In this document: piece by piece, positions 420-63,500 of the stretch
Position numbering within the stretch: position 1 is the first letter of the stretch
Layout: the number at the start of each line of letters is the position of its first letter
Source: Stomorhina lunata
Lineage: Eukaryota; Arthropoda; Insecta; Diptera; Rhiniidae
Direction: 5' to 3'
Assembly (NCBI GenBank): GCA_933228675.1
Contig: OW121740.1
Location: forward strand, 159,026,486-159,090,485
DNA length: 64,000 bases
Made by a program: the position numbers and the translations under genes
The notes under the pieces: generated by a model
What the model saw: the letters and a program-made list of their open reading frames with translations, nothing else
Told to the model about the DNA's origin: nothing
Databases searched by the model: none

Positions 420-3190
420 ATCTTCCTATTAAAATATGAAATTTAGGGAAAAAAAATTCTATTAAAATATGAAATTTTGAAAAAATTCTTATAAAAATAT
501 GAAATTTTTGAAAAACTTCCTATAAAATTATGACATTTTTGAAACATTTTCTATAAAAATATCAAATATTTGAAAAATTTCTTTCAAGAATAAAAAAAAA
601 TTTAAAGATTTTCTATACAAATAGGAAATTATTGAAAAATTTCCTATAAAATTTGGAAATTTAAAAAAAAATTTAATTTCCTATAAAAATAGGAAATTTT
701 TGAAAAATTTCCTATAAAAATAGGAAATTTTTGAAAAATTTCCTATAAAAATAGGAAAATTTTGAAAAATTTCCTATAAAAATAAGAAATTTTTGAAAAA
801 TTTCCTATAAAAATAGGAAATTTTTGAAAAATTTCCTATAAAAATAGGAAATTTTTGAAAAATTTCCTATAAAAATAGGAAATTTTTGAAAAATTTCCTA
901 TAAAAATAGGAAATTTTTGAAAAATTTCCTATAAAAATAGGAAATTTTTGAAAAATTTCCTATAAAAATAGGAAATTTTTGAAAAATTTCCTATAAAAAT
1001 AGGAAATTTTTGAAAAATTTCCTATAAAAATAGGAAATTTTTGAAAAATTTCCTATAAAAATAGGAAATTTTTGAAAAATTTCCTATAAAAATAGGAAAT
1101 TTTTGAAAAATTTTTCTAAAAATAGGAAATTTTTGAAAAATTTCCTATAAAAATAGGAAATTTTTGAAAAATTTTCTATAAAAATAGGAAATTTTTGAAA
1201 AATTTCTTATAAAACTAGGAAATTTTTGAAAAATTTCCTATAAAAATAGGAAATTTTTGAAAAATTTCCTATAAAAATAGGAAATTTTTGAAAAATTTCC
1301 TATAAAAATAGGAAATTTTTGAAAAATTTCCTATAAAAATAGGAAAATTTTCAAAAATTTCCTATAAAAATAGGAAATTTTTGAAAATTTTCGTATAAAA
1401 ATAGGAAATTTTTGAAAAATTTCCTATAAAAATAGGAAATTTTTGAAAAAATTACTATAAAAATAGGAAAATTTTTTAAAATTTCCTATTAGATTAGGAA
1501 ATTTTTGAAAAATTTCCTATAAAAATAGGAAATTTTTGAAAAATTTCCTATAAAAATAGGAAATTTTTGAAAAATTTCCTATAAAAATAGGAAATTTTTG
1601 AAAAATTTCCTATAAAAATAGGAAATTTTTGAAAAATTTCCTATAAAAATAGGAAATTTTTGAAAAATTTCCTATAAAAATAGGAAATTTTTGAAAAATT
1701 TCCTATAAAAATAGGAAATTTTTGAAAAATTTCCTATAAAAATAGGAAATTTTTGAAAAATTTCCTATAAAAATAGGAAATTTTTGAAAAATTTCCTATA
1801 AAAATAGGAAATTTTTGAAAAATTTCCTATAAAAATAGGAAATTTTTGAAAAATTTCCTATAAAAATAGGAAATTTTTGAAAAATTTCCTATAAAAATAG
1901 GAAATTTTTGAAAAATTTCCTATAAAAATAGGAAATTTTTGAAAAATTTCCTATAAAAATAGGAAATTTTTGAAAAATTTCCTATAAAAATAGGAAATTT
2001 TTGAAAAATTTCCTATAAAAATAGGAAATTTTTGAAAAATTTCCTATAAAAATAGGAAATTTTTGAAAAATTTCCTATAAAAATAGGAAATTTTTGAAAA
2101 ATTTCCTATAAAAATAGGAAATTTTTGAAAAATTTCCTATAAAAATAGGAAATTTTTGAAAAATTTCCTATAAAAATAGGAAATTTTTGAAAAATTTCCT
2201 ATAAAAATAGGAAATTTTTGAAAAATTTCCTATAAAAATAGGAAATTTTTGAAAAATTTCCTATAAAAATAGGAAATTTTTGAAAAATTTCCTATAAAAA
2301 TAGAAAATTTTTGAAAAATTTCCTATAAAAATAGGAAATTTTTGAAAAATTTCCTATAAAAATAGGAAATTTTTGAAAAATTTCCTATAAAAATAAGAAA
2401 TTTTTGAAAAATTTCCTATAAAAATAGGAAATTTTTGAAAAATTTTCTATAAAAATAGGAAATTTTTGAAAAATTTCCTATAAAAATAGGAAATTTTTGA
2501 AAAATTTCCTATAAAAAAAGGAAATTTTTGAAAAATTTCCTATAAAATAGGAAATTTTTGAAAAATTTTCTATAAAAATAGGAAATTTTTAAAAAATTTC
2601 TAATAAAACTAGGAAATTTTTGAAAATTTTCGTATAAAAATAGGAAATTTTTGAAAAATTTCCTATAAAAATAGGAAATTTTTGAAAAATTTACTATAAA
2701 AATAGAAAAATTTTTTAAAATTTCCTATTAGATTAGGAAATTTTTGAAAAATTTCTTATAAAACTAGGAAATTTTTGAAAAATTTCCTATAAAAATAGGA
2801 TATTTTTGAAAAATTTCCTATAAAAATAGGAAATTTTTCAAAAATTTCCTATAAAAATAGGAAATTTTTGAAAATTTTCGTATAAAAATAGGAAATTTTT
2901 GAAAAATTTCCTATAAAAATAGGAAATTTTAAAAAAATTTCCTATAAAAATAGAAAAATTTTTTAAAATTTCCTATTAGATTAGGAAATTTTTGAAAAAT
3001 TTCCTATAAAAATAGGAAATTTTTGAAAAATTTCCTATAAAAATAGGAAAATTTTGAAAAATTTCCTATAAAAATAGGAAAATTTTGAAACATTTCCTAC
3101 AAAAATAGGAAATTTTTGAACATTTTTCTATAAAAATATGAAACTTTGGAAAATTTTCCTATAAAAATATGTAATTTTCATATAAAAACA
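420..3190. repeat. 31-bp satellite array, palindromic monomer
   Basis: About 80-85 head-to-tail copies of a 31-bp unit. Each unit is an odd palindrome (ATAGGAAATTTTT, central G, AAAAATTTCCTAT) followed by an AAAA spacer. Copies at 1,500-2,500 are nearly identical. Edges are degenerate: at 420-600 and 3,100-3,190 the units drift to ATATGAAATTTTTG forms. Local variant blocks (CCTATTAGATTAGG at about 1,485, 2,727 and 2,968) recur together with the same neighbours, which shows segmental duplication within the array. The array lies in the intron downstream of Ace exon 6. Confidence 0.97.
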
Positions 3191-4351
<1,161 letters not shown>

Positions 4352-5755
4352 ATTTGCCTAAAGGATGACATTTCTGTAGAAAAGTTGACGATAGGAATAC
4401 ATTTCTATAGAAAAGTTGACGATAGGAAGACATTCCTATAGAAAAGTTGACGATAGGAAGATATTTCTATAGAAAAGTTGACGATAGGAAGACATTTCTA
4501 TAGAAAAGTTGACGATAGGAAGACATTTCTATAGAAAAGTTGACGATAGGAAGACATTTCTATAGAAAAGTTGACGATAGGAAGACATTTCTATAGAAAA
4601 GTTGACGATACGAAGACATTTCTATAGAAAAGTTGACGATAGGAAGACATTTCTATAGAAAAGTTGACGATAGGAAGACATTTCTATAGAAAAGTTGACA
4701 ATAGAAAGACATTTCTATAGAAAAGTTGACGATAGGAAGACATTTCTATAGAAAAGTTGACGATAGGAAGACATTTCTACAGAAACGTTGACGATAGGTA
4801 GACATTTCTATAGAAAAGTGGACGATAGGAATACATTTCTATAGAAAAGTTGACGATAGGAATACATTTCTATAGAAAAGTTGACGATAGAAAGACATTC
4901 CTATAGAAAAGTTGACGATAGGAAGATATTTCTATAGAAAAGTTGACGATAGGAAGACATTTCTATAGAAAAGTTGACGATAGGAAGACATTTCTATAGA
5001 AAAGTTGACGATAGGAAGACATTTCTATAGAAAAGTTGACGATAGGAAGACATTTCTATAGAAAAATTGACGATAGGAAGACATTTCTATAGAAAAGTTG
5101 ACGATAGGAAGACATTTCTATAGAAAAGTTGACGATAGGAAGACATTCCTATAGAAAAGTTGACGATAGAAAGATATTTCTATAGAAAAGTTGACGATAG
5201 GAAGACATTTCTATAGAAAAGTTGACGATAGGAAGACATTTCTATAGAAAAGTTGACGATAGAAAGACATTTCTATAGAAAAGTTGACGATAGGAAGACA
5301 TTTCTATAGAAAAGTTGACGATAGGAAGACATTTCTACAGAAAAGTTGACGATAGGTAGACATTTCTATAGAAAAGTGGACGATAGGAAGAAATTTCTAT
5401 AGAAAAGTTGACGATAGAAAGACATTTCTATAGAAAAGTTGACGATAGGAAGACATTTATATAGAAAAGTTGACGATAGGAAGACATTTCTATAAAAAAG
5501 TTGACGATGGGAAGACATTTCTATAAAAAAGTTGACGACGGGAAGACATTTCTATTGAAAAGTTTACGATAGGAAGACATTTCTATAGAAAAGTTGACGA
5601 TAGGAAGACATTTCTATAGAAAAGTTGACGATAGGAAGACATTTCTATAAAAAAGTTGACGGTGGGAAGACATTTCTATTGAATAGTTTACGATAGGAAG
5701 ACATTTCTATAGAAAAGTTTACGATAGGAAGACATTTCTATAGAAAAGTTGACCA
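4352..5755. repeat. 31-bp satellite array with GTTGACGATAGGAAGACA
   Basis: About 45 tandem copies of a 31-bp unit: GTTGACGATAGGAAGACA followed by TTTCTATAGAAAA. The TTTCTATAGAAA part is a 12-bp perfect palindrome shared with other arrays in the window. Variants (ATAGAAAG, CTACAG, GTGGAC) recur in the same order along the array, indicating block duplication. It is the same family as 9,376-11,655. Confidence 0.96.
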
Positions 5756-5794: not shown

Positions 5795-7632
5795 TTTCAA
5801 GGAAAATTTTTGAAAAATTTCCTATAAAAATAGAAAATTTTTGAAAAATTTACTACAAAAATAAAAAAGTTTTAAAAAATTTCCTTTACAAATAGAAAAT
5901 TAAAAAAAAAATCTAAAAAATAGACTCTTTTTGTAAAATTTCCTATAAAAATGGAAAATTTTTGATAAATGTCCTAAAATAGAAAATTTTGAAAAATTTG
6001 CTATAAAAATAGAAAATTTTTGAAAAATTTCCTATAAAAATAGAAAATTTTTGAAAAATTTCCTATAAAAATAGAAAATTTTTGAAAAATTTCCTATAAA
6101 AATAGAAAATTTTTGAAATATTTCCTATAAAAATAGAAAATTTTTGAAAAATTTCCTATAAAAATAGAAAATTTTTGAAAAATTTCCTATAAAAATAGAA
6201 AATTTTTGAAAAATTTCCTATAAAAATAGAAAATTTTTGAAAAATTTGATATAAAAATAGAAAATTTTTGAAAAATTTCCTATAAAAATAGAAAACTTTT
6301 GAAAAATTTCCTATAAAAATAGGAAGTTTTTGAAAAATTTCCTATAAAAATAGAAAATTTTTGAAAAATTTCCTATAAAAATAGAAAATTTTTGAAAAAT
6401 TTTCTATAAAAATAGAAAATTTTTGAAAAATTTTCTATACAAATAGAAAATTTTTGAAAAATTTCATATAAAAATAGAAAATTTTTGAAAAATTTTCTAT
6501 AAAAATAGAAAATTTTTGAAAAATTTTCTATAAAAATAGAAAATTTTTGAAAAATTTTCTATAAAAATAGAAAATTTTTGAAAAATTTTCTATAAAAATA
6601 GAAAATTTTTGAAAAATTTTGTATAAAAATAAAAAATTTTTGAAAAATTTTGTATAAAAATAAAAAATTTTTGAAAAATTTTCTATAAAAATAGAAAATT
6701 TTTGAAAAATTTTCTATAAAAATAGAAAATTTTTGAAAAATTTTCTATAAAAATAGAAAATTTTTAAAAAAATTTTCTATAAAAATAGAAAATTTTTAAA
6801 AAAATTTTCTATAAAAATAGAAAATTTTTGAAAAATTTTGTATAAAAATAGAAAATTTTTGAAAAATTTTGTATAAAAATAGAAAATTTTTGAAAAATTT
6901 TCTATAAAAATAGAAAATTTTTGAAAAATTTTCTATAAAAATAGAAAATTTTTGAAAAATTTTCTATAAAAATAGAAAATTTTTAAAAAAAATTTTCTAT
7001 AAAAATAGAAAATTTTTGAAAAATTTTCTATAAAAATAGAAAATTTTTGAAAAATTTTCTATAAAAATAGAAAATTTTTGAAAAATTTTCTATAAAAGTA
7101 GAAAATTTTTGAAAAATTTTCTATAAAAATAGAAAATTTTTGAAAAATTTTCTATAAAAATGGAAAATTTTTGAAAAATTTTCTATAAAAATAGAAAATT
7201 TTTGAAAAATTTTCTATAAAAATAGAAAATTTTTGAAAAATTTTCTATAAAAATAGAAAATTTTTGAAAAATTTTCTATAAAAATAGAAAATTTTTGAAA
7301 AATTTTCTATAAAAATAGAAAATTTTTGAAAAATTTTCTATAAAAATAGAAAATTTTTGAAAAATTTTCTATAAAAATAGAAAATTTTTGAAAAATTTTC
7401 TATAAAAAAAGAAAATTTTTGAAAAATTTTCTATAAAAAAAGAAAATTTTTGAAAAATTTTCTATAAAAATAGAAAATTTTTGAAAAATTTTCCATAAAA
7501 ATAGAATATTTTTGAAAAATTTCCTATAAGAATAGAAAATTTTTGAAAAATTTCCTATAAGAATAGAAAATTTTTGAAAAATTTCCTATAAAAATAGAAA
7601 ATTTTTGAAAAATTTCCTATAAAAATAGAATT
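5795..7632. repeat. 31-bp satellite array, TAGAAAATTTTTG variant
   Basis: About 59 copies of a 31-bp unit, ATAGAAAATTTTTG then AAAAATTTTCTAT plus an A-rich spacer. It is the GG-to-GA sibling of the palindromic unit at 420-3,190. Units at both ends retain the CCTAT form and central units the TCTAT form, so palindromic symmetry is kept in both. It follows the unrelated 31-bp array at 4,352-5,755 after about 40 bp. Confidence 0.96.
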
Positions 7633-9375
7633 TTTTTAAATATAGAGAATTCAACAAAAAATTCTTTTAAAAATAGTGTTGCGTACTTTTAGGATGTATA
7701 AATATATAAGTTAGTTCTAGTTCTATGAGTAATGCCACATACTAAGTCAGGATTAAGAGTTAGTTAGATTGATTAAAAAGACTTCTTATACGAAATTTTT
7801 CTGTTAGAAACTCTTTCTTTAGTAAAAAAGTTTTGCCAGTACTAGAGGGCAACAAAAATTTTATACCAATTTAAATTTGAAGGTAAATACTTTACAATTC
7901 GTTAACAATTAATTATGATAATGGCATTTTTTCATATTATTCTGCATTTTTTATATGAACAAATTATTAAACTTTTTTTCGCCTGATCTTATTATTAAAA
8001 ATTATTTGCCTTTTATTCAAATTAATTGAACTATTTAAACAATTTATGAAAATACAAAAAACCCGGCAATTATTTAGCCATAATCATTGTTGTAAAACAG
8101 CAAATCTAAATTTACATATTTATCTATAACATGCAATTATTTTAATACTTATTATTAAATAAATAAAAAAATAGTACATATTTATGCAATTTACTAAATT
8201 GTATTGTATAATTATTGCTTTAGACATGGTTTTTATGGCAAAGAATGGTATTTTAAAAAATTAAAAAATACTATTTAATATAAAATTTTTCTATCTGTTT
8301 AACACATTCTTTAAATTTTTTTGCATATGACAAGATTTAATTGTGTTGGTTTTTTTTATTTTTTTATAGTATGTATTTGTGTATACAAATATTTGCAATC
8401 ATTTCATTACTTTCACCATAAATCTGTTGTTTAATTCATTTATTTAATTAAAATATTTTTAAAGAAAAAACATTTTAACAATAGAAAATGGATTTAATTT
8501 TATTATATAAACTATAAAATTTTAACTAAATTTTAGTAAAAAATTTTAAATAGTTTCTACAACATTTACAAAAGGTAATTTTTTGGGAAACACATTTATG
8601 AGATATTTTTAAAAATTCTTCAAATAGAATTATAGATTTCTTTCATTCAAATCATTGGCTTTGCTTTATCTTTTTATTCCCCCCCAAAAAGGAAGTATTT
8701 TCATACAAATATTTACTGCCTACTTGCAGGCGCTAATATATTCCGACATCTTTATCAGCTCGCAAATTTCTGTCAAACAAAATGTTGCAAATTAATCCAA
8801 ACGAACGACAACGCAAACAACTCAATTATAAAATGCCAATAACGACTCATGTATCATCATCAACGTCATTCTAAATTGAAATACAATTCTCTTTATAGTT
8901 ATTCGATTCCTGTTTTTATATTTATTTGCAAAAAAGAGGAAGTTTTTTTCTCCCCCTGTAGTCCTTTTACTCATTCTGTCACCATTATTTCCTTTTTTTT
9001 TTTTTTTTTTTGTAATAAGGGCATATGTGTATAAATATGTGTGCAATAGTTAATGTATGTATGTATAAGTAAATAAAAGAATTGTAAAATATAAAATCAC
9101 ATGAGAATTTTATTTTTTTATATTTTTATTTTTCATTTACGAGTTAAAAAAAATATTTTTATATTTCGATAAAAATTAAGTGTCAGAGACGGAAGCAATA
9201 AATTTATACGGCAACAAGATAAAGAGGAAACTATAAAAAACTGCACAAAAAAAAACCAACTAGTCTGATTTATCGGGTTAAACTCAATTCATTTAATGAT
9301 ATTGTCATTTGCATAGAATATTTAAATATTTCCTAAAAATTATTTTTAAATATCAAGTAGTAAACTTTTAATGAC
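7633..9375. other. Intronic sequence without recognised genes
   Basis: Ordinary AT-rich intronic DNA between two satellite arrays. It contains a C run (8,680), a long T run (8,992-9,011) and otherwise unique sequence. Short open frames on both strands here overlap each other and show no protein-like composition. Confidence 0.5.
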
Positions 9376-11655
9376 AAAAATTGAAAAATTTCTATAGAAA
9401 ACGAAAAGAAAAATTGACATTTCTATGAAAAGCTGAAAAAGGACAATATTTCCATAGAAAAGTTTAAGTCAGGACAATTTTTCTATAGAAAAGTTGACGA
9501 TAGGACAACATTTCTATAGAAAATTTCACGATAGGACAACATTTCTATAAAAAAGTTGACGATAGGAAGACATTTCTGTAGAAAAGTTGACGATAGGAAG
9601 ACATTTCTAGAGAAAAGTTGACGATAGAAAGATATTTCTAGAGAAAAGTTGACGATAGGAAGACATTTCTAGAGAAAAGTTGACGATAGGAAGACATTTC
9701 TATAGAAAAGTTGACGATAGGAAGACATTTCTGTAGAAAAGTTGACGATAGGAAGACATTTCTACAGAAAAGTTGACGATAGGAAGACATTTCTACAGAA
9801 AAGTTGACGATAGGAAGACATTTCTGTAGAAAAGTTGACGATAGGAAAACATTTCTAGAGAAAAGTTGACGATAGAAAGATATTTCTAGAGAAAAGTTGA
9901 CGATAGGAAGACATTTCTATAAAAAAGTTGACGATAGGAAGACATTTCTATAGAAAAGTTGACGATAGGAAGACATTTCTACCGAAAAGTTGACGATAGG
10001 AAGACATTTCTGTAGAAAAGTTGACGATAGGAAAACATTTCTAGAGAAAAGTTGACGATAGAAAGATATTTCTAGAGAAAAGTTGACGATAGGAAGACAT
10101 TTCTATAAAAAAGTTGACGATAGGAAGACATTTCTATAGAAAAGTTGACGATAGGAAGACACATCTATAGGAAAGTTGACGATAGGAAGACATTTCTATA
10201 GAAAAGTTGACGATAGGAAGACATTTCTATAGAAAAGTTGACGATAGGAAGACATTTCTATAGAAAAGTTGACGATAGGAAGACTTTTCTATAGAAAAGT
10301 TGACGATAGGAAGACATTTCTATAGAAAAGTTGACAATAGGAAGACATTTCTATAGAAAAGTTGACGATAGGAAGACATTTCTATAGAAATGTTGACGAT
10401 AGGAAGACATTTCTATAGAAAACTTGACGATAGGAAGACATTTCTATAGAAAAGTTGACGATAGGAAGACATTTCTATAGAAAAGTTGACGATAGGAAGA
10501 CATTTCTATAGAAAAGTTGACGATAGGAAGACATTTCTATAGAAAAGTTGACGATAGGAAGACATTTCTATAGAAAAGTTGACGATAGGAAGACATTTCT
10601 ACAGAAAAGTTGACGATAGGAAGACATTTCCATAGAAAAGTTGACGATATGAAGACATTTCTATAGAAAAGTTGACGATAGGAAGACATTTCTATCGAAA
10701 AGTTGACGATAGGAAGACATTTCTATAGAAAAGTTGACGATAGGAAGACACATCTATAGAAAAGTTGATGATAGGAAGACATTTCTATAGAAAAGTTGAC
10801 GATAGGAAGACATTTCTATAGAAAAGTTGACGATAGAAAGGCATTCCTATAGAAAAGTTGACTATAGGAAGACATTTTTATAGAAAAGTTGACGATAGGA
10901 AGACATTTCTATAGAAAAGTTGACGATAGGAAGACATTTCTATACAAAAGTTGACGATAGGAAGACATTTCTATAGAAAAGTTGACGATAGGAAGACATT
11001 TCTATAGAAAAGTTGACGATAGAAAGGCATTCCTATAGAAAAGTTGACTATAGGAAGACATTTTTATAGAAAAGTTGACGATAGGAAGACATTTCTATAG
11101 AAAAGTTGACGATAGAAAGGCATTCCTATAGAAAAGTGTACTATAGGAAGACATTTTTATAGAAAAGTTGACGATAGGAAGACATTTCTATAGAAAAGTT
11201 GACGATAGGAAGACATTTCTATAGAAAAGTTGACGATAGGAAGACATTTCTATAGAAAAGTTGACGATAGGAAGACATTTCTATAGAAAAGTTGACGATA
11301 GGAAGACATATCTATAGAAAAGCTGACGATAGGAAGACATTTCTATAAAAAAGTTGATGATAGTTGGCGATAGGAAGACTTTTCTTTAGAAAAGTTGACG
11401 ATAGGAAGATTTTTCTATAGAAAAGTTGTCGATAGGAAGATTTTTCTATAGAAAGGTTGTCGATAGGAAAATTTTTCTATAGAAAAGTTTTCGATAGGAA
11501 GATTTTTCTATAGAAAAGTTGTCGATAGGAGGACTAGTCTTAAGAAAAGTTGACAATAGGAAAACTTTTCTTTAGAAAAGACAATAGAAAGACTTTTCTT
11601 AGGAAAAGTTGACAATAGGAAGACTTTTCTTCAGAAAAGTTTATAATAGGAACCC
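9376..11655. repeat. 31-bp satellite array, second block of the GTTGACGATAGGAAGACA family
   Basis: About 73 copies of the same 31-bp unit as 4,352-5,755. Short runs with CTAGAG or CTACAG in place of CTATAG, and with GGCATTCCTATAG (about 10,840, 11,025, 11,117), are repeated as blocks. Toward 11,350-11,650 the unit degrades to GATTTTTCTATAGAAAAGTTGTCGATAGGA and then fades out. Confidence 0.96.
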
Positions 11656-19589: not shown

Positions 19590-22336
19590 TCTTCGATAAA
19601 AATATATTTCTATAGGGAAATCTTCGTTAAAAATATTTTTATCGAAAATTTTTTTATAATAATATTTTAAAATAATTTACCTTCAACAAAAAAATTTTTC
19701 TTTAGAAAAAAAAATTCATAAAAATTTTCCTTGAAAAAAATTTCCTAGAAAATTTTTTGATAATAAAATTTTCTATTGAAAAATTTTTAATAAAAAAAAT
19801 TTTTTATAGAAAAATGTTTGATAAAAAAATTTTCTATTGAAAAATTTTTTTCTATGGAAAATTTTTTTATCAAAAATTTTATTAAGATAACTTTTTGATA
19901 AAAAATTTTATTAAGATAAATTTTTGATAAAAAAATTTTCCATAGAAAAATGTTTGATAAAAAAATTTTCTATAGAAAAATTTTCGGTAAAAAAAATATT
20001 CTATGGATTTTTGATAAAAAAAAATTTTCTAGAAAAAAATGTTAGATAAAAAATGTTTTACATAAAAATTATCGATAAAAAAGGTTTTATTAAAAAACTT
20101 ATCAAAAAATAGTCTATAGAAAAAATGTTAATAAAATAATTTTGGATGTAAAAAATGTCTCTATCAAATTTATGATAAACAAATTTTTTATAGAAAACTT
20201 TTTTGACAAAAAAAATTTTCAATAGAAAGATTTTTGATAAACAAATTTTCTGTAGAAAAATTTTTGATAGAAAAAAATTTTTGAATATAAAATTTTCTAT
20301 AGATTTTTGATAAAAAATTTTTCTAGAGAAAAATGTTAGATAAAAAAATATTTTATAGAAAAGTTCTCGATAAAAAACTGTTCTATGAAAAAACTTTTTA
20401 TCAAAAATTTTTCTATAGAAAAAATGTTAATAAAAAAATTTTTGATAAAAAAAAATTCTATATAAAAATTTTTGATAAACAAATTTCTATAGAAAACTTT
20501 TTTGTTAAAAAAAAAAAAATTCTATAGAAATATTTTTGATAATAAAATTTTCTGTAGAAAAATTTTTGATAAAAAAATGTATATAGAAAAAAAAATCTAT
20601 AGATTTTTGATAAAAAAAATTTCTATAGAAAAATGTTCGATAAAAAAATGTTTTATAGAAAAGTTCACGATAAAAAACTGTTCTATGAAAAAGCTTTTTA
20701 TCAAAAAATTTTCTATAGAAAAAATGTTAATAAAGAAATTTTTGATAAAAAAAATTTCTATATAAAAATTTATGATAAACAAATTTTCTATAGAAAACTT
20801 TTTTGATAAAAAAATTTTCTATAGAAAGATTTTAAAAAACAAATTTTCTGTAGCAAAATTTTTGATAAAAAAAATTTTATATAGGCCAATTTTTCATTAA
20901 AAAATGTTCTATAGATTTTTGATAAAAAAATTTTCTATTGAAAAATGTTCAATAAAAAAATGTTTTATAGAAAAGTTCTCGATAAAAAACTGTTCTATGA
21001 AAAAACTTTTTATCCAAAAATTTTCTATAGAAAAAATGTTAATAAAAAAATTTTTGATAAAAAAAAATTATATATAAAAATTTTTGATAAACAAATTTTC
21101 TATAGAAAACTTTTGTGATAAAAAAAATTCTTTGAGAACAAATTTTCTGTGGAAAAATTTTCTATATTAAAAAAAAAAATTGATAAAAAAATTTTCTATA
21201 CAAATATTTTTGATAAAAAAATTTTCCATAGAAAAAATTTTGATAATAAAATTTTATTTAGAACAATTTTTGATAAAAAAAAATTTCTACAGAAAAATTT
21301 TCGATAAAAAAAATTTTCTATAGATTTTTGATAAAAAAAAAGTTTCTATAGAAAAATGTTCGATAAAAAAATGTTTTATAGAAAAATTCTCGATAAAAAA
21401 AATGTTCCATGGAAAAACTTTTTGTCAAAAAATTAAAAGAAAAACTTTTCGATGTAAAAACCTTTTATCAAAAAATTTTCTATAGAAAAAATGTTAATAA
21501 AAAAATTGTTGATAAAAAAAATATATATATAAAAATTTTTGATAAACAAATTTTCTATAGAAAACTTTTGTGATAAAAAAAATTCTTTAGAAAGATTTTT
21601 AAGAACAAATTTTCTGTAGAAAAATTTTCTATATTTAAAAAAAAAAATTGATAAAAAAATTTTCTATAGAAATATTTTTGATAAAAAAATTTTCCATATA
21701 AAAATTTTTGATCAAAAAATTTCCATAGAAAAATTTTTGATAATAAAATTTTATTTAGAACAATTTTTGATAAAAAAAAATTTCTACAGAAAAATTTTCG
21801 ATAAAAAAAAGTGTTCTATAGATTTTTGATAAAAAAAAAGTTTTTATAGAAAAATGTTCGATAAAAAAATGTTTTATAGAAAAATTTTCGATAAAAAAAA
21901 ATGTTCCAGGGAAAAACTTTTTGTCAAAAAATTAAAAAAAAAAAAATAACTTTTCTATGGAAAAAGTTTTTATCAAAAAATTTTCTATAAAAAAATTTTT
22001 GATAAAAAAAAATTCTATATAAAAATTTATGATAAACAAATTTTCTATATAGAAAACTTTTTTGATAAAAAAAAATTTCTATAGAAAGATTTTTTATAAA
22101 TAAATTTTCTGTAGAAAAATTGTTGATAAAATAATTTTATATAGAAAGATTTTTAATAAACACATTTTCTATAGAAAACTTTTTTGATAAGAAAAATTTC
22201 TATAGAAAAATTTTTGATTAAAAAATTTTCGATTGAAAAATTTTTGATTAAAAAATTTTCGATTGAAAAATTTTTGATTAAAAAATTTTCGATAGAAAAA
22301 TTTTTGATGAAAAAATTTTCTATAGAAAAATTTTGA
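19590..22336. repeat. 30-31 bp satellite array with higher-order structure
   Basis: Degenerate units of about 30-31 bp built from TTTTCTATAGAAAA and TTTTTGATAAAAAA. A multi-monomer block starting AAAAATGTTCGATAAAAAA recurs at about 20,330, 20,632, 20,941, 21,353 and 21,853. The first spacings are near 305 bp (about ten monomers), later ones longer through insertions. The right end (22,190-22,330) becomes a clean 30-bp GATTAAAAAATTTTCGATT form. The Ile/Phe/Lys-rich open frames here are translations of the repeat, not genes. Confidence 0.93.
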
Positions 22337-23744
22337 AAGAACAAAAGGAAGATAGAACTCAGACGACCACTTTTTGGCTCTAATAACCAGGAATACATTC
22401 ATAAAACGTAAGCAAGTAAAAATTCACAATATACAACCAAAAATTATTTTAATAGGGTGTTCAAAAAAAACACCAAGTCACAATTGCTGCATATTTCGGC
22501 ACATTTAAAAAAATTTACATTATCATATTTTCTAAAAAAAGAGCTAAAACAAATCCCTTTCTTTTAAGAAAAATATGGATTTTGTAAAGTATCTAAATTC
22601 ATTAAAATATTTCATATAAATTTGATCCCACCTAATATTCAAGCGACAAGTGCCCAGAGTAATTGTGAACAATTATTCATTTGTTGTATGTTGTACAATA
22701 CAATAAAATTGTCTCTAATATTGTCTAAGGTCAACCGTGTAAAAACAAATGATAACACCAACAATCAGCAACAACATGACGCAGTTAACAACTCGAACAC
22801 AATAACAATAGCCAACATGTTTCACTGCAATGTTCGAAAGTGGCGGCAATTTTACTAAAGAATTAAAAGTTAAGAGAGCTCAGTGGATCCTGTGGAATAA
22901 TGAGGTTTCACGAACAATATGAAAAACATAACAATAAATGCAACAAAAGAAAAAAGTAGTTATATAAAAATCTAAATTGGTTAATAACGGAGAGAATAGA
23001 AGAGGGCCTATCATAATTTTTGTTTAGGATTGGCATTTAAATTAATCGTCATGAAATTTTTCATAAGCCATTTAGTTTTATACATGACTAAGTTGGCTAC
23101 TATTTCGGTTATAGGGTTTTAATATGAAAAACAAAAAAAAACTTTAAATGTAAACTTTTTGTCTAAGATACGCTACTATACATTATATGTAAACAAGCAA
23201 AAAAAAACGCTTTTAGCTTAAAGGACTAAAACACACACAAACACATAAACATTTAAGTATTTATTATAAAAATCCACAAAAGTACTTGTACTTTTGTTAA
23301 GTTAAAGGTAAATACGCTAACATTACGGTTTGCTACCACAAAACAACAGCCGACAAACATTGTCATCTGGTAATTGTGCTCGCTCACATTTAAGTTTTAA
23401 TCCTTAGGGTAAAATAAAATATAAAGAAACAACAACAACAAAAATAAGAAAAAAAAAGTTAAAATAAACTAAAACAAAATAACATATCGAAAAGTAAAAA
23501 AAAAAGTTAAAACAATACAAGTAAATACTAGATATACCAACATATAGGAGATGTGTCAAGGGCAAAAGAAGCCAACAGTAGAGAAGTGTAGAAAAGCTTG
23601 TAGTACTGGAGTTAAATTATAGCAAACCAATTATGCACAATGGGCTAAAATTAACAATTTATAGATATAAATTGATTTAAAGAAATAAACCGTTTAAACA
23701 TAAGTTTAATTTATTTAAAACTTTGGGTTCACTACAAAACGAAA
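22337..23744. other. Unique intronic sequence, no gene recognised
   Basis: Non-repetitive DNA between two satellite arrays, with higher complexity at 22,620-22,860 (CAACAATCAGCAACAACATG-like) and 23,320-23,400. No splice-compatible exon of Ace fits here, since exons 4 and 5 join directly. Confidence 0.45.
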
Positions 23745-26072
23745 AATATTTTGATTGAAAATTTTTCTATAGAAAAATATTTTTATCGAAAAATTTTCTA
23801 AAGAAAAAATAGCTTTATCGAAAATTTTTCTATAGAAAAATATTTTTATCGAAAAATTTTCTATAGAAAAATATTTTTATCGAAAATTTTTCTATAGAAA
23901 AATATTTCTGTCGATTTTTCTATAGAAAAATATTTTTATCCAAAAATTTTCAATAGAAAAATATTTTGATCGAACATTTTTCTATAGAAAAATATTTTGA
24001 TCGAACATTTTTCTATAGAAAAATATTTTTATCGAAAATTTTTCTATAGAAAAATATTTATATCAAAAATTTTTCTATAGAAAAATATTTTTATCGAAAA
24101 ATTTTCTAAAGAAAAATTTTTTTGGAGAACATTTTTATATTGGAAAATAGCTTTATCGAAAATTTTTCTACAGAAAAATATTTTTATCGAAAATTTTTCT
24201 ATAGAAAAATATTTTTTATCGAAAAGTTTCTTATATAAAATTATTTTTATTGAAAAATATTTTTATCGAAAATTTTTCTATAGAAAAATATTTTTATCGA
24301 AAATTTTTCTATAGAAAAATATTTTTATCGAAAAATTTTCTATAGAAAAATATTTTTATCGAAAAAATTTCAACAGAAAAATATTTTGATTGAAAATTTT
24401 TCTATAGAAAAATATTTTTATCGAAAATGTTTCTATAGAAAAATATTTTTATCGAAAAATTTTCTAAAGAAAAATACTTTTATTGAAAAATATTTTGATT
24501 CAAAATTTTTCTATAGAAAAATATTTTTATCGAAAAATTTTCTAAAGAAAAATAGCTTTATCGAAAAGTTTTCTATAGAAAAATGTTTTTATCGAAAAAT
24601 TTTCAACAGAAAAATATTTTGATTGAAAATTTTTCTATAGAAAAATATTTTGATCAAAAATTTTTCTATAAAAAAATATTTTTATCAAAAATTTTTCTAT
24701 AGAAAAATATTTTTATCGAAAATTTTTCTATAGAAAAATATTTTTATCGAAAAATTTTCTATAGAAAATATTTTTATCGAAAAAATTTCAACAGAAAAAT
24801 ATTTTGATTGAAAATTTTTCTATAAAAAAATATTTTTATCGAAAATGTTTCTATAGAAAAATATTTTTATCGAAAAATTTTCTAAAGAAAAATTTTTTTG
24901 GAGAACATTTTTATATTGGAAAATAGCTTTATCGAAAATTTTTCTACAGAAAAATATTTTTATCGAAAATTTTTCTATAGAAAAATATTTTTTATCGAAA
25001 AGTTTCTTATATAAAATTATTTTTATTGAAAAATATTTTTATCGAAAATTTTTCTATAGAAAAATATTTTTATCGAAAATTTTTCTATAGAAAAATATTT
25101 TTATCGAAAAATTTTCTATAGAAAAATATTTTTATCGAAAAAATTTCAACAGAAAAATATTTTGATTGAAAATTTTTCTATAGAAAAATATTTTTATCGA
25201 AAATGTTTCTATAGAAAAATATTTTTATTGAAAAATTTTCTAAAGAAAAATACTTTTATTGAAAAATATTTTGATTCAAAATTTTTCTATAGAAAAATAT
25301 TTTTATCGAAAAATTTTCTAAAGAAAAATAGCTTTATCGAAAAGTTTTCTATAGAAAAATGTTTTTATCGAAAAATTTTCAACAGAAAAATATTTTGATT
25401 GAAAATTTTTCTATAGAAAAATATTTTGATCAAAAATTTTTCTATAAAAAAAAAATTTTATTAAAAATTTTTCTATAGAAAAATATTTTTATAGAAAATT
25501 TTTCTATAGAAAAATATTTTTATCGAAAAATTTTCTAAAGAAAAATTTTTTTGGAGAACATTTTTATATTGGAAAATAGCTTTATCGAAAATTTTTCTAC
25601 AGAAAAATATTTTTATCGAAAATTTTTCTATAGAAAAATATTTTTTATCGAAAAGTTTCTTATATAAAATTATTTTTATTGAAAAATATTTTTATCGAAA
25701 ATTTTTCTATAGAAAAATATTTTTATCGAAAATTTTTCTATAGAAAAATATTTTTATCGAAAAATTTTCTATAGAAAAATATTTTTATCGAAAAAATTTC
25801 AACAGAAAAATATTTTGATTGAAAATTTTTCTATAGAAAAATATTTTTATCGAAAATGTTTCTATAGAAAAATATTTTTATCGAAAAAGAAAAATATTTT
25901 TATCGAAAATTTTTCTATAGAAAAATATTTTTATCGAAAAATTTTCTAAAGAAAAATTTTTTTGGAGAACATTTTTATATTGTAAAATAGCTTTATCGAA
26001 AATTTTTCTATATAAATATAATTTTATCGAAAATTTTTCCATGGAAAAATATTTTTATCGAAAATTTTTCTA
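23745..26072. repeat. 31-bp satellite array with 776-bp higher-order repeat
   Basis: The monomer is 31 bp: GAAAAATTTTCTATAGAAAA plus ATATTTTTATC. A marker block (TTTTTTTGGAGAACATTTT with TATTGGAAAATAGC) appears near 24,113, 24,890, 25,545 and 25,963. Segments starting at 24,386 and 25,162 are almost identical over about 237 bp and lie 776 bp apart, equal to 25 monomers. That shows duplication of a long multi-monomer unit, with shortened copies to the right. Confidence 0.95.
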
Positions 26073-26470
26073 TATCTTAATTTGAATTAATAATTCGTTC
26101 AAAATAGGCTTTAAAACAAATTAAACGGTGTTACATATGAACAACTTCTTCAAAAACTTGGAAAGCGACCTGGTGGGGGTTATAGATCTAGGTGAGGACA
26201 TACAAAAACAATTTTCAAAGATTTCGAAACAAGTGCAAAATTTTGAGATATTCACGAAAAACTTTTTTCGGATAGGTCGTAGTATTTAAGTACTCATATA
26301 GTCATTAAGTACTCATATTTTATTCGAAGTTATCGATACTTTAGAAACAACCTCCTACAAGTATGCTATATAAATCGAAAACTAATGGATATTTATGAAT
26401 TGCTTTCTTTAAGAGGTTTACGAAACGTATTTGTAATTAAATTTAATTTTGTTTCAAGTTAAATAAGAAC
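26073..26470. other. Unique intronic spacer between arrays
   Basis: About 400 bp of non-repetitive sequence including GACCTGGTGGGGG. No feature recognised. Confidence 0.45.
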
Positions 26471-27185: not shown

Positions 27186-27244
27186 CTACGCTTTTACTTT
27201 TGGTTTATGAACATAATTCTGAAAAGTTTTGTTTGTAAATATAG

Positions 27245-27432
27245 TAATAATGCGATGTTTTCTATCTGTCTAAATTAGGGATAATCCTCCTGAAGAGATG
27301 GCTTAACCAACCATCGAAAGGCGTCGAGGAATTTGGTTTCTCCGCAAACATTTTTTGTCTTTTTATCAATAAATTGGTCTGTTACATTAATAAATAAATG
27401 TAACAGATTTGGGATCAAATGCGAATACTCTT
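27245..27432 (+). repeat. Dispersed ribozyme-bearing repeat, copy 1
   Basis: Shares with 61,303-61,480 the run ATTAGGGATAATCCTCCTGA, then the hammerhead-like core, CAAACATTTTTTG-type sequence, a loop-AATAAATA hairpin (27,378-27,407) and GGGATCAAATGCGAATACTC against GGGATTCTTAGTGCAATACAC. It interrupts a 30-bp satellite array. Likely a fragment of a Penelope-like element or retrozyme (inference). Confidence 0.8.
27278..27330 (+). ncRNA. Hammerhead ribozyme-like motif, copy 1 (probably weak or decayed)
   Basis: Stem I TCCTC (27,285-27,289) pairs with GAGGA (27,326-27,330). The core CTGAAGA fits the consensus CUGANGA. Stem II GATGG/CCATC has 5 bp, then GAAA and GTC before the predicted cut after C27,325. 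Stem III is damaged: the segment reads AGGCGT where the other copy has self-pairing ACGCGT. Cleavage would therefore be slower or absent. Confidence 0.55.
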
Positions 27433-33283: not shown

Positions 33284-36920
<3,637 letters not shown>

Positions 36921-42294: not shown

Positions 42295-42385
42295 TGAAAA
42301 GGTTGGTTTATCAAAAAAAAAAACTATTTATCAGAATAATAACCAATTGTATAAAATTTGGATCCTAGTGCAATACTCTTATCTT
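42295..42385 (+). repeat. Dispersed ribozyme-bearing repeat, partial copy 3
   Basis: Resembles the downstream half of the repeat at 61,385-61,480: TGGTTTATCAAAAAA, CTATTTAT, then GGATCCTAGTGCAATACTC. The hammerhead core is absent. Confidence 0.5.
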
Positions 42386-42439
42386 AAACTTCGAATTAAA
42401 TGTTTGATATCCCATAATATTTAAAATGAAACATTTTCC

Positions 42440-53520: not shown

Positions 53521-54790
53521 AAAAAAATTCGATAAAAAAATTTTTCTATACAAAAATTTTTTTATCGGAAAAAAATTTCGATAAAAAAATTTTTCTATAG
53601 AAAATTTTTCTATACAAAACTTTTCTTATCGGAAAAAAATTTTCGATAAAAAAAATTTTTCTATAGAAAAATTTTCGATAAAAAATTTTTCTATAGAAAA
53701 TTTTTCGATAAAAAAATTTTTCTATAGAAAAATTTTCGATAAAAAAATTTTTCTATAGAAAAATTTTCGATAAAAAAATTTTCGATTAAAAAATTTTTCT
53801 ATAGAAAAATTTTCGATAAAAAAATTATTCTCAAAAAATGTTTCTATACAAAAATTTTCGATAAAAAAATTATTCTATAGAAAAATTTTGATAAAAATAT
53901 TTTTCTATAGAACAATTTTTGATAAAAAAATTTTTCTATAGAAAAATTTTCGATCAAAAAATTTTTCTATAGAAAAATTTTAGATAAAAAAATTTTTCTA
54001 TAGAAAAATTTTCGATAAAAAATTTTTTCTATAGAAAAATTTTCAATAAAAAATTTTTTCTATAGAAAAATTTTCGATAAAAAAATTTTTAAATAGAAAA
54101 ATTTTCGATAAAAAAATTTTTCTAAAGAAAAATTTTCGATAAAAAATTTTTTTTATAGAAAAATTTTTGATAAAAAATGTTTTCTATAGAAAAATTTTTG
54201 ATCAAAAAGTTTTTCTATAGAAAAATTTTCGATAAAAAGATTTTTCTATGGAAAAATTTTCGATAAAAAAGTTTTTCTATAGAAAAATTGTCTATAAAAA
54301 TATTTTTTTATAGAAAAATTTTTAATAAAAATAATTTTCTATACAAAAATTTTTCATAAAAACATTTTTGAAAAAAATATTTTTCTATAGAAAAATTTTT
54401 GATAAAATTATTGTTCTATAGAAAAATGTTTGATAAAAATATTTTTCTACAGCAAAATTTTTGATAAAAATATTTTTCTATAAAAAATTTTTTGAGAAAA
54501 ATATTTTTTTTACATAAAAATTTTTAATAAAAATATTTTTCTATAGAAAAATTTTTGATAAAAATATTTTTCTATAGAAAAATTTTTGAAAAAATATTTT
54601 TCTATAGAAAAATTTTTGAAAAAATATTTTTCTATAGAAAAATTTTTGATAAAAGTATTTTTCTCTAGTAATAATATTTTCTGCAGAAATTTTTTTCTAT
54701 AGAAAATTTTTCGAAAAAAAATTTTTTCTACAGAAAAGTTTTTATAAAAATATTTTCTATGGAATTTTTTTTTTTAATATTTTGCTATAG
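53521..54790. repeat. 31-bp satellite array (GATAAAAAAATTTTTCTATA type)
   Basis: About 40 copies of a 31-bp unit: GAAAAATTTTCGATAAAAAA plus ATTTTTCTATA. The left part is uniform; the right part (54,300 on) shifts to GATAAAAATATTTTTCTATA. It is close to the array at 23,745-26,072 but in a different phase and variant. Confidence 0.95.
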
Positions 54791-57720: not shown

Positions 57721-60700
57721 AAAGCTAAGAATATAAGGTTTTCTTTGCATAAATCTAAAATTTGTACTTTTTTAATCAAATAAGTTATATCCTAATAAAC
57801 TAACTAATTATTGGTTTAATACAAAATTATTCTAATATTAAATCATTAGACTCAATATAGCTTTTTAGCTAAATATGCAGAGATATGCAGAGGATTTATA
57901 TACTATTATAAAGCTAAGATTCGACGCTTTAATTCGTCATTAATCTCAATTTATATATTTTCAACAAAAAAAGTTATAGTATATCAAATATCTATGAATT
58001 AAGAAACTTTTTTCATTGATAAGCTCAAATGATGAAAAATACCACAAATGTTAACAAAATTCAATGATATGCTTTTAGCTTAATATGCCAAGATATACAG
58101 ATGATCTATGAACTATAACAAAGCTGAGATTTGAAACTATTATTTGGCATAAATCTAAATTTGTACTTTTTTAATTAAAAAAGTTATATCCTAATAAACT
58201 AAGCTCTTATAGGTTTAATACAAAATTATACTTAAAATAGATCATTATACTTATTATAAATTTTTAGCTAAATATGCAATGATATGCAGGTGATTTATAT
58301 ACCAATATTAAGTAGAGATTAGAGACTTTAATTCGTCATTAATCTAAAGTTGTATGTTTTCAAAAAAAAAAGTTATAGTATACCAAACTTCTATGAATTA
58401 AGAAATTCTTTTCATTAAATAGTTTAAAAGAATAAAAACACTACAAACGTTAACAAAATTGAATGATATGTTTTTAGCTTAATATGCAAAGATATTCAGA
58501 TGATCTATAAACTATAATAAAGCTGAGATTAGAACTTCCGATTTGTCATAAATCTAAATTTGTACTTTTTTAATCAAAAAAGTTATAACTAAGCTATTAT
58601 GGGTTTATTACAAAATTATATTTATAATAATAGGTCGTTATACTAATTTTAGCTTTTTAGCTAAATATGCAAAGATATGCAGATGATTTATATATCATAG
58701 TAAAGCTGAGATTTCAGACTTTAATTCATCATTTACCTAAGCTTGTACGTTCTTAACAAAACAAGTTATAGTATATTAAACATCTATGAATTAAGAAATT
58801 CTTTTTATTAATTAGTTTAAAAGAAGATAAACACTACAAACGTTAACAAAATTGAATGATATGTTTTTAGCTTAATATGAAAAGATATGTAGATGATCGA
58901 TCAACTATAATAAAGCTAAGATTAGATACTTTGATTAGTCATAAATCTTAATTTGTACTTTTTTAAATCTAAAAAGTTATATCCTTCCAAATTAAGCTAT
59001 TATAGGTTTCATACAAAATTCTATTTATAATAGAACATTAAAATCATTTTAGCTTTTTAGCTAAATATGCAAAGATATGCAGATGATTTATATATCATAG
59101 TAAAGCCGAGATTTCAGACTTTAATTCATCATTTACCTAGGCTTGTACGTTCTTAACAAAACAAGTTATAGTATATCAAACATCTATGAATTAAGAAATT
59201 CTTTTTATTAATTAGTTTAAAAGAAGATAAACACTACAAACGTTAACAAAATTGAATGATATGTTTTAATCTTTGTATGCAGGTGATTTATAAACTATTA
59301 TTATAAGGAACTCGGACTTGTCGTTTCATTTAATTTAGTAGGTCATTAGACTTAATATAGCCTTTCAACTAAATATGCAAAGATATGCAGATAATTTATA
59401 TACTATTATAAAGCTAAGACTTGAGGCTTTAATTCGTCATTAGTCTACATTTACATATTTTCAACGAAAAAAGTTATACTACACCAAATATCTATGAAAT
59501 AAGAAATTCTTTTCATTGATCAGTTTAAAAGAAAAAAAAAACACTACAAACATTAAAAAAATTGATTGATATGTTTTTAGCTTAATATGAGAAGATATGT
59601 AGATGATCGATCAACTATAATAAAGCTAAGATTAGATACTTTGATTAGTCATAAATCTTAATTTGTACTTTTTTAAATCTAAAAAGTTATATCCTACTAA
59701 ATTAAGCTATTATAGGTTTAATACAAAATTCTATTTATAATAGATCATTACAATCATTTTAGCTAAATATGCAAAAATATGCAGATGATTTATATATCAT
59801 TATAAAGCTCAGATTTGAGACTTTACTTCATCGATAATTAAAATTTGAACATTTCTGACAAAAAAAGTTATAGTTTACTAAATATCTATGAATTAAGTAA
59901 TTTTTTTTATGTTGATTAGTTCAATTGCAAAAAAACACTACAAACAAACTTTGATTTATCTTAAATCTTAAATTATATTTTTCCAATTAAACAAACTTTA
60001 CATAAGCTATTGTAGGTTAAACATTTTAACTTGACAGTCTAATATGCAAAGATATGCAGAGGATTTATATACCATTATAAAGATAAGACTTATATCTTTC
60101 ATTTTTTATAATTATAAAATTTGTATATTTCCAACGAAAAAAGTTATAGTATACCAAACTTCTATAAACTAAGTAATTACAACATTTCTGCAAAATATTT
60201 CTTCGCTATGATAATTTTCACTTCTTTATTGTGAAATTATTAATTTAGAAATTATTTTTATAGTTTTTTTGACGCACCCTAATCCTTTTTTTTCTTTCAA
60301 TGTCTGTATTCATGTTTATACTTAGGTCAGTCAGCGCTGAATGGATGACAGAAAACACACACATATTGACAAATATAAAACAAAAAAACATTTGAACAAG
60401 GACTCTATATCTTTATTAGACAGAAAACAAGAGTGATAGCAAACTGGAAAGGAAACCAAGGTGACAAATAACTTTTTTCTTCATAATTCTTTTACGAGTG
60501 AAAGATACACCAGTTTTTCTTGCTTTGGCTTGGGTTTGATATAAACCAATGAAATGTTTTATAAGAAAATTTAAGTAAAAATAAATAAATTTAATTGTAT
60601 TTTATAAAGATATCACTATGATCAAACCTATATCTTCCACTTCTAAAAAAGCTTTAATTCTTAGTCATATTTTTTTTTTTTTTTTATTTTAAATTCTTTG

Positions 60701-61302
60701 CTGGGTCTTCATTTCATTGCATTAGCTTCCAACATTTCTTTATAGATTTCTTTGATACTGATAAAAACAAAAACTTAAAATAAAAGAACTTTGGTTACTG
60801 TTGTCATGTTATGGACTTTAATTGCTGAAATATAGAGGACAGGGGACAAATACATAAAAAAAAAGATAAACTAAATTAATTGATATAATTCAAAAGAAAA
60901 GAACTTATATTGAAGAACGATGTAAACACAACTAATTACTTTATGGGAAATTTAATGTATATTAAAAAAAAGACGTGATCAATATTTTGGCATCATCTTT
61001 AATACGGAGAACATTTCATATTTTAAATGTGAGTTATTTAAGATTTAATTCAAACTTACATTTATATGGAACCTTTTTCCCAATTATTGATTTTTGGCCT
61101 TATAGGCAAATATATTCAGATGATTTATGAACTTTTACAAAGCTAAGACCTTGGACCTTGATTTGGCTTAAATTAAACTTCACACATTACTAACAAAAAA
61201 ATGTTTGTGTGTTTATGTTCGGATGATAATCTTCGCTTTATATTGATATTTGTTGGACACAATAATAATAATTCGTATTTATTCAGTCCCTCAAATTATA
61301 CA

Positions 61303-61480
61303 TAATGTGAGGTTTTCGCTCTGTCTAGAATTAGGGATAATCCTCCTGATGAGATGGTCTAACCAACCATCGAAACGCGTCGAGGAAAGGTTTCCCCACC
61401 AACATTTTTTGGTTTTATCAAAAAACTATTTATTACAATAATAAATAATTGTAATAAATTGGGATTCTTAGTGCAATACA
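61303..61480 (+). repeat. Dispersed ribozyme-bearing repeat, copy 2
   Basis: Same family and orientation as 27,245-27,432. It includes CTGTCTAGAATTAGGGATAA, an intact hammerhead core, AACATTTTTTGGTTTTATCA, a 12-bp-stem hairpin at 61,428-61,459 and GTGCAATACACCCC. It interrupts the diverged 200-bp array. Confidence 0.85.
61334..61396 (+). ncRNA. Type I hammerhead ribozyme motif, copy 2 (intact core)
   Basis: All invariant parts are present in order. Stem I: TCCTC (61,341-61,345) with GAGGA (61,382-61,386), extended by GGGA (61,334-61,337) with TCCC (61,393-61,396) across an internal loop. Core: CTGATGA (61,346-61,352). Stem II: GATGGT/ACCATC with loop CTAACCA. Then GAAA (61,372-61,375), a minimal stem III in ACGCGT, and the GTC cleavage triplet; the cut is predicted after C61,381. 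Very short stem III and type I topology are features of hammerheads in Penelope-like elements and retrozymes. Activity is inferred, not shown. Confidence 0.85.
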
Positions 61481-63500
61481 CCCCTTTTTTTAAAAAAAAA
61501 TATATTCGATCAAACTAAGTTATCAAATGTTTAAATCAAAATTTTACTTATATAAGGTCATTCCTTCAATTATTGTTTACTGCCTTTGTTTGCAAAGATA
61601 TGCAGATGATTTATTTACTGCTACAAAGATAAGATATGGTACTTAAACTTGTTATAAATCTAAATTTGTACGTTTTGAACAGAAAAAGTTATAGCCCAAC
61701 AAACTTAGTTATTTTAAGTTTACTTCAAAATTTTGCTGTTATTAAATCTACTAACTCATTAACAATTTAAGTCTTAGAATATAATAAACTTCGGATTATA
61801 TTTAAAATATTATAAAGCGTATTTTTTAGACTTTGATATGTTTAACTAAGCAAAGATATGCATATAATTTATACACTATTTTAAAGTTAAGCTTTTTGAT
61901 TTTGATTAGTCGTAAATCTAAATTTTTACATTTTAAATTAAGAAAGTTATATCGTAATAGACAGAGTTATTTTAAGTTTAAATAAAAATTTTGATAATAG
62001 AATATATTTGGCTTAATATGTCAAGATGTGCAAATATATGCATATGATTTATACACTATTATAAAGCTAAGACTTTGGACTTTGATTTGCTATAAATCTA
62101 ACTTAACACGTTACCAGCAATAAAATTTGTATTCGAAGAACCTGAATTATTAAAGGTTTAATGCAAAGTTTAACTTATATTAGATCATTGCCCCAATTAT
62201 TGATTTTTGCCTTTGTATGCAAAGATATGCAGATGACTTATGTACTGCTATAAAGATGAGATACGGTACTTAGAATTGTCATATATCTTATAAAGCGTAG
62301 ATTTAAGACTTGGATATAAAAGGATATGCATATAATTTATACGCTATTATAAAGCTGAGCTTTGTGACTTTTACAAGTCATAAATCTTAACTTCAAATTG
62401 AAAACTTATATTCGAGTATACTGAGTTCTTTTCAGTAAAAATAAAAATTTTGATTAAATAGCATATTTGTTTTACTACCACTTTTAGGCTTAATATGCCA
62501 ATATACGCAAATATATGCATATGATTTATATACTATTTTAACGCTAAGACTTTAGACTTTGATGTGCAATAAATCTAACTTTACACTTTACCAATAAAAA
62601 ATTTTATATTCAGACAAACTAAAGATTTAATGCACAATTTTACTTATATAAGGTCATACCTTCAATTATCCTTTTTTGATTTTATATGCAAAAATATGCA
62701 TATGATTTATGCACTGTCATAAAGATGACATATAGTTCTTAGATTTGTCATAAACCTAAGCTTGTAGGTTTCGAATGAAAAAAGCTATAGCCCAAGAAAC
62801 GGAGTTATTTTAAGTTTGCTTTAAAATAATACTTATATTAAGTCTATTACCTCATTTATGATTTAATTGACAGAGTTATTTTGATATAAACGAAAGTTTT
62901 AATAAAAATAATAATAGAATATCTTTCTTATAACTACTTTTGACTTAATACGCCAAATGTGCAAATATATGCAAATGATTTATACACTATTATAAAGATG
63001 ACCTCTTGGACTTTGATTTATCATAAACTCAAACTTGTATTCTTACAATAGAAAAAGTTATATTCTGATAAACTAAGTTATTCTTCATTTTATTAAAAAT
63101 TGTTTTTTTAATAAAATATCTTGCTTTTACTGTTTTTGGCTTAATAGGCTAGGATATGCAGATGACTCACAAACATTATTAAAGCCAAGACTATGGACTT
63201 TGATCTGTCATAAAACAAAATTTATACTTTTCCAATAAAAGAAGTAATATCCTTGCAACCTAAGCTATTATAGGTTTAATACAAAATTATACTTAAATTA
63301 GATCATTACACTAATAATAGATTTTTCCCTTAATATGCAATAAAATGCAGATGATTTATATATCGCAACAAGGCCAAGATTTATGACTTTCTTTCTTCAT
63401 AAATTGAAGTTCATAAGTTTTCAACAAAAAAAGTGATGGTATAACAAACTTCCATAAATTAAGTAATTACAAAATTTCTACAAAATATTTGTGAAAACTC

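Follow-up and report, generated by a model that had tools for sequence, protein, structure and literature searches.

A hammerhead motif in a retrozyme-like mobile element of Stomorhina lunata with Penelope-type copy ends

The hammerhead motif and its surroundings

The window, by which we mean the whole 64,000-nucleotide stretch analysed (C1:159026486-159090485), contains an acetylcholinesterase exon, in keeping with the first-pass annotation, which had placed the repeat described here beside Ace. The exon frame lies at about 32642-33223/33226 and has as its best match the acetylcholinesterase chain 6xys_A (361.5 bits), which we take to be from Drosophila. Much of the window consists of minisatellite arrays with partly palindromic units of 30-31 bp (416-3178, 4362-5753, 5802-7637, 9416-11652, 19720-22334, 23741-26074 and 53528-54647), some of which equal the hammerhead's score in a covariance model, and a long array of TTATAATGCA-like units (33318-35666) is found near the exon frame. 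A 399-bp tandem repeat of 3.9 copies occupies 57744-59281, with related diverged pieces extending to about 63.4 kb, around the element considered below.

On the forward strand at 61334-61396 lies a motif with the attributes of a type I hammerhead, namely CTGANGA, GAAA and an NUH triplet in order, three helices and an open stem I. Read from its 5' side, the outer arm GGGA (61334-61337) precedes TCCTC (61341-61345), one strand of a 5-bp stem I, followed by the catalytic core CTGATGA (61346-61352) and a 6-bp stem II (61353-61371) composed of GATGGT (61353-61358), the loop CTAACCA (61359-61365) and ACCATC (61366-61371). GAAA (61372-61375) and CGCGTC (61376-61381) together supply the palindrome ACGCGT, within which stem III has 2 bp in the monomer, and the GTC triplet, with cleavage expected after 61381. 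GAGGA (61382-61386) completes stem I, and TCCC (61393-61396) pairs with GGGA as an outer extension of that stem beyond an internal loop. A strict scan requiring the core, stems I and II and one closing pair of stem III found this site and no other in the whole window, and the same motif appeared in none of 300 simulated first-order Markov windows searched on both strands. Every part named in the first-pass annotation, from the correctly ordered core, GAAA and GTC triplet to the three pairing helices and the outer GGGA/TCCC, can be read in the sequence, and its view that chance would hardly unite core and helices agrees with the simulation, so the hammerhead motif is confirmed as real.

Rfam, proposed at the outset as a check, gave no match above gathering scores in the window, a result that is uninformative for a hammerhead of the minimal class. 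At E values up to 10, six weak matches were obtained at 61000-61800, the sole hammerhead among them being of type III, at 15.6 bits and in a different register. The negative says little because Rfam equally misses eight hammerheads in this genome's Penelope-like elements (PLEs): with the E limit raised to 5, it returned nothing in nine loci, comprising these eight and the tandem units of the element itself at locus L009. Rfam models therefore do not cover the minimal hammerhead class, and we dropped them as a judge of the motif. A covariance model made from the eight PLE hammerheads was also rejected as support, since it found the window motif at noise level (17.7 bits, with a rough E value of 0.064), below the 18.6 bits reached by minisatellites of the window.

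Folded without constraint, the lone 63-mer favours other partners, with a minimum free energy of -18.4 kcal/mol against -15.6 for the hammerhead (a gap of 2.8), and the pair probability is 0.06 for the outermost pair of stem I and 0.92 for the first pair of stem II. For the dimer, a double hammerhead formed through the six-base palindrome has -39.7 kcal/mol, compared with a dimer minimum of -42.6. Since the monomer prefers another fold and the palindrome permits a double hammerhead, activity as a dimer or with protein help seems likelier than activity as a monomer. Dimer-active hammerheads of the newt and of small PLE variants (Forster 1988 and Lunse 2017, as cited in PMC7761336) share the weak stem III that may pair between molecules. 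In PAc, a PLE of the anole, the hammerhead cuts only with protein present (PMC11167929; this and the other PMC articles are cited throughout from excerpts).

The 488-bp element and its copies

The window motif sits in a 5'-truncated copy (61197-61481, forward strand) of a repeated element, covering unit positions u386-488 and then u1-u182 at 98.6% identity by blastn to the unit L009:6607-7094. This unit is 488 bp long and non-coding, with no ORF of note seen, and its hammerhead cut site falls at u82/83. Two further relatives lie on the forward strand of the window. The first (27237-27415, 82% identity) is a diverged copy of a second subfamily, also present in L025 and L029, which has the core CTGAAGA and a damaged stem III in which pair 15.2-16.2 is G-G, and scores 18.7 bits with the PLE-hammerhead model. 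The second (42318-42422, 80.6% identity) is a diverged fragment corresponding to u121-225, which lies downstream of the hammerhead. The ATG in the core was considered as a sign of a PLE ORF, as in PAc, and rejected: it opens a frame of just 30 codons, and the PLE locus L045 has a likewise short frame there. In this the unit, which has no PLE ORF, differs from PAc-type PLEs.

The repeat had been described as dispersed, and genome searches indeed found many copies, the exact 41-nt hammerhead occurring 748 times in the 728-Mb genome (366 and 382 by strand; reversed control 0). With the 141 bases around the motif as query, the best 40 of 1006 candidates scored were all identical to it, and the loci for end mapping were picked by this identity and so represent young copies. 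The downstream part of the hammerhead, u83-104, has 1483 copies and u76-104 has 1142, leaving 341 of the 1483 without the seven bases that precede the cut, a step that might mark an accumulation of 5' ends there. At C1:9582565-9583505, u83-104 recurs at a spacing of 185 bp (one gap of 364), in no case with the exact 41-nt hammerhead, and this is perhaps a shorter unit. Pairs of exact hammerheads 1-6 kb apart were tried as candidate autonomous elements and discarded, the copies in three of four such pairs (L042-L044) sitting in duplicated flanks with no PLE frame; open frames in L042 look like a Helitron.

Several loci hold more than one lap of the unit. In L009, identical 488-bp laps form head-to-tail series, first on one strand and then on the opposite one, with mismatches at 0 of 953 and 0 of 620 overlapping bases in the two arrays. 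L010, L011, L012 and L029 also exceed one lap: L012 has one mismatch in 257 bases and one lap of 489 bp, and L010 and L011 give no clean overlap at one fixed shift, indicating an indel between their laps. From locus to locus, 3-5 mismatches and 1-5 gaps per about 750 bases distinguish the arrays. Near-identical laps within an array, together with differences between loci, would fit one template per insertion and nothing beyond that.

Animal retrozymes with type I hammerheads have been published, insects being named without detail (PMC7229834), as have minimal PLE hammerheads (Cervera 2014 and Lunse 2017, as cited in PMC7229834). The window motif was initially assigned to the minimal stem III kind known from Penelope elements and retrozymes, which the 2-bp stem III and the dispersed copies bear out. 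Like the metazoan non-LTR retrozymes (Cervera and de la Pena; PMC7229834, PMC7761336), the element consists of non-coding tandem units with one type I hammerhead per unit and a weak helix III, and is of low GC content with many copies and no LTR seen. Its 488-bp unit lies slightly above the 150-450 bp given in the excerpted part of PMC7229834, a matter of degree. The nonautonomous Penelope elements of heliconiine butterflies (PMC6685494) are likewise short, nonautonomous, of Penelope kind and from insects, but the word hammerhead is absent from the main text of that article, to which this comparison is confined. A full-text literature search covering few subscription papers returned, among the papers listed, neither a fly retrozyme nor PLE-type ends of a retrozyme.

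Penelope-like elements of the same genome

When 144 of 192 candidates for a PLE reverse transcriptase (RT) seed were scored, at least 138 matched with E values of 0.001 or lower, the best of them with 60% identity. Of the 138 matches listed, 12 have an open frame of 830-864 aa, and in one of these 12 a stop lies within the match. Searches with WxRYVDD patterns for the PLE RT returned 0 and 2 matches, neither of which looked like a PLE on visual inspection. L045 and L046 are situated between tandem PLE copies; the C-terminal frame of L045 contains a Pfam GIY-YIG domain (25.7 bits, cut-off 22.6), and that of L046 has no Pfam GIY-YIG match, yet aligns with the L045 frame at 39.5% over 248 residues. 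Among 11 more PLE ORF-start regions, a hammerhead region is recognisable in six (L047, L048, L050, L052, L053 and L054) and in none of the other five (L049, L051, L055, L056 and L057).

All eight PLE loci with a hammerhead have the same order of parts: a minimal hammerhead, a stretch with distant pairing arms, an AT-rich stretch, a CGG..CG block and the ORF. The distant arms read GACCT..AGGTC or have other letters, single-sequence folding forms the long-range stem in part of the loci, and the 488-bp unit has at most an analogous counterpart of this stem. Although the letters of the stems vary, all 80 of the 80 pair cells in the hammerheads keep their pairing and 29 two-sided changes are counted, the equivalent of stem I likewise keeping its pairing with different letters, from which we conclude that the motif is evidently kept in the PLEs. 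Paired percentage and covariation score were reached by none of 500 shuffles, and two weaker measures by 9 and 51 of the 500; the segments had been picked by pairing, which biases the result towards pairing, and slid controls drop to 29-48% paired. Three of the eight loci have TTGAAAA cores (L046:1259-1303, L048:188-232 and L050:147-191), in which C3-G8 is replaced by U3-A8 while all stems pair, a change that would bear on the working of the ribozyme. L046 and L048 are close relatives.

The first-pass annotation had taken the repeat to be probably the processed end of a Penelope-like element or retrozyme and had suggested looking for a linked RT and GIY-YIG domain. PLEs with an RT and, in L045, a GIY-YIG domain do exist in this genome, but the idea of a processed end finds no support: the repeat is a non-coding 488-bp unit that stands by itself and has copies and arrays of its own. 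A tblastn search at E 1e-3 that took both the N- and the C-terminal PLE frames from L045 and L046 as queries found nothing in 34 element-bearing loci or the window, the positive control having worked, and the ORFs with RT and GIY-YIG that characterise an autonomous PLE sit in separate PLE loci. No autonomous PLE carrying the hammerhead of the element itself emerged: a comparison by eye for C1 below 107 Mb showed none of the 31 PLE match rows there to be within 5 kb of any exact hammerhead among the matches listed. Nor did any of the 8 usable PLE starts from 13 PLE regions qualify as an autonomous partner sharing the element's sequence: by blastn, the best hit between the unit and the PLE starts had an E value of 0.005 and lay on the opposite strand, and the same-strand comparison, with E allowed up to 1, retrieved the unit alone. 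At the DNA level, the unit thus shows no convincing similarity to the PLE starts.

Copy ends and the probable mover of the element

End mapping covered 32 loci (31 fetched loci and the window) and gave 48 rows, 44 of which were used for 3' ends; one row cut by the end of L025, two diverged rows in L029 and a 34-bp piece in L034 were left out, and L022, L026 and L028, which share one 5' flank, are probably a single insertion. Two clusters about 40 nt apart, u195-210 (18 ends) and u239-248 (19 ends), account for 37 of the 44 mapped 3' ends, corresponding to about 113-128 and 157-166 nt after the cut (binomial probability 1e-19 against a uniform spread over u142-271). The other seven ends are elsewhere, among them that of the window copy (u182), outside both clusters. 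The 5' ends of element copies are variable. A single truncated copy is present in 18 of the 32 loci, and head-to-head pairs with their 3' ends outward in 11 (L009, L011, L013, L014, L019, L021, L024, L025, L030, L034 and L039). The mapped copies, which had been chosen for holding the hammerhead, run past it into the upstream part, suggesting that their template was uncut across the hammerhead, as a multimer or a circle would be; were the template a linear monomer, cleaved at u82/83 and reverse-transcribed from u205 or u245, the hammerhead would be missing from the copies.

PLE copies of this genome end at similar landmarks. In family A (query L047:1-421:-), with 40 of 209 candidates scored, 11 short 5' pieces set aside and a few rows being pieces of one locus, 39 of 44 rows end at matching positions, 17 at q267-285 and 22 at q313-321, that is 70-88 and 116-124 nt after the cut; four of the remainder reach or approach the query end and one ends early. 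Family B comprises 8 rows at 98-100% identity, of which four end at q303, one at 266 and one at 255 (144, 107 and 96 nt after the cut, respectively), and two reach the query end. In a diverged PLE family (81-83%), the alignments of ten rows end without exception at q221 (62 nt past the cut), which counts somewhat against a PLE origin of the ends although we tentatively read it as an alignment break, and one row at 73% runs nearly through. The far end sites, with a slash at the end point, are ..TTTTTAATAAA/TATACGG in the element, ..GTAATAAAA/TATAGAATCGG in family B and ..AATTATAAA/TCACGG in family A, in each case within an AT-rich stretch and at most 10 bases before a CGG. In families A and B the near site precedes the 3' arm of the stem, and in the element it precedes a TCCCAA able to pair with TTGGGA. 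Copies of the element end at two sites resembling PLE start sites, with 37 of 44 ends at them and comparable landmarks in both PLE families.

A comparable arrangement is known from PAc, in which cDNA starts 111-118 nt into the ORF and the cut lies 26 nt into it, placing the start about 85-92 nt after the cut, a distance of the same order of size as those found here; an optional tail of 30-40 bp spans two start sites, and the enzyme cleaves and extends both strands of its target (PMC11167929). The end clusters of the element and of the PLEs resemble this internal initiation and tail. Element and PAc-type PLEs have in common a hammerhead and, after it, internal sites of cDNA initiation separated by a 30-40 bp tail, genomic copies ending at these sites, and the use of both target strands. 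PMC7761336 considers PLEs probable, though unproven, movers of animal retrozymes and, in the excerpted text, describes retrozyme repeats as having no conserved motif that tells which element moves them. The copy ends of the present element differ in pointing to a particular RT, and give a sign of the mover where that article sees no telling motif. Because copies end at the same kinds of places, there is good evidence, from position rather than sequence identity, that PLE machinery may make the element copies.

We consider it likely that the element is a non-autonomous animal-type retrozyme with a 488-bp unit and PLE-like cDNA start sites, probably moved by a PLE reverse transcriptase acting in trans. 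Unit RNA would carry the dimer-type hammerhead and, downstream of the cut, two cDNA start sites placed as in PLEs. A PLE protein would bind a transcript of tandem units, or an RNA circle formed by cleavage and ligation, and, priming at target DNA, would initiate cDNA at an internal point of the RNA some 120 or 163 nt past the cut; synthesis would then run back through the hammerhead into the previous lap, and head-to-head pairs could arise because both target strands are usable. We infer each of cleavage, the circular or multimeric template and the role of PLE protein in trans.

The strongest competing account, which we hold to be possible though not probable, makes the element a miniature PLE, that is a deletion derivative of one PLE family that kept the pLTR and ORF start and lost the ORF, and no independent retrozyme. 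Its order of parts (hammerhead, stem, end sites and a CGG-containing block) is indeed similar, and family A has such a short derivative: q1-43 abuts q160 onward, 10 rows begin exactly at q160, and the 3' ends fall in the same two ranges, apparently making it a second hammerhead-bearing non-autonomous family. Against this origin, no autonomous family with the element's sequence appeared among the usable PLE starts, the blastn comparison with them was unconvincing, and the hammerhead details are unlike those of all eight PLE loci, in each of which one additional base, A or T, separates A9 from stem II, unlike in the element, and the stem III palindrome has four bases rather than six.

Whichever its ancestry, the hammerhead might be an unused relic that is carried along, a reading we think unlikely. 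PAc hammerhead mutants still insert in vitro (PMC11167929), and the monomer hammerhead fold of the window motif is not the one of minimum free energy, but the complete pairing of the PLE hammerheads, with their two-sided changes, shows the motif to be kept in the PLEs. The 748 exact copies weigh little here because they are young.

Movement by a fly LINE instead of a PLE, as for a SINE-like element, is quite improbable. LINE-driven elements show 5' truncation, as do the copies here, but two end sites about 40 nt apart, the lack of a common A-tail among the element 3' flanks listed, the many pairs in head-to-head arrangement and the similarity of the ends to those of PLEs all speak against it. 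Spread as a satellite-like repeat, through unequal exchange or by way of DNA circles and with the hammerhead carried along, is very improbable, since despite the short tandem arrays and a window rich in minisatellites, the single truncated copies in 18 of 32 loci and the two preferred 3' ends with variable 5' ends give the picture of target-primed reverse transcription.

Both the hammerhead motif of the window and the mobile element that carries it are real, and the element is a relative of the retrozymes whose copies have ends of PLE type; its parts are known, and their combination makes the question of the mover testable. A fly genome with long-frame PLEs and many element copies allows that question to be addressed directly with one protein and one RNA. 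More broadly, animal retrozymes may be parasites of PLEs, a generalization we entertain seriously while placing it somewhat short of an even chance: each would offer, as a circular or multimeric RNA, a start site of PLE type at which the RT starts inside the unit and copies more than one lap through the hammerhead. If true, this would name the machinery that moves animal retrozymes and explain their tandem copies.
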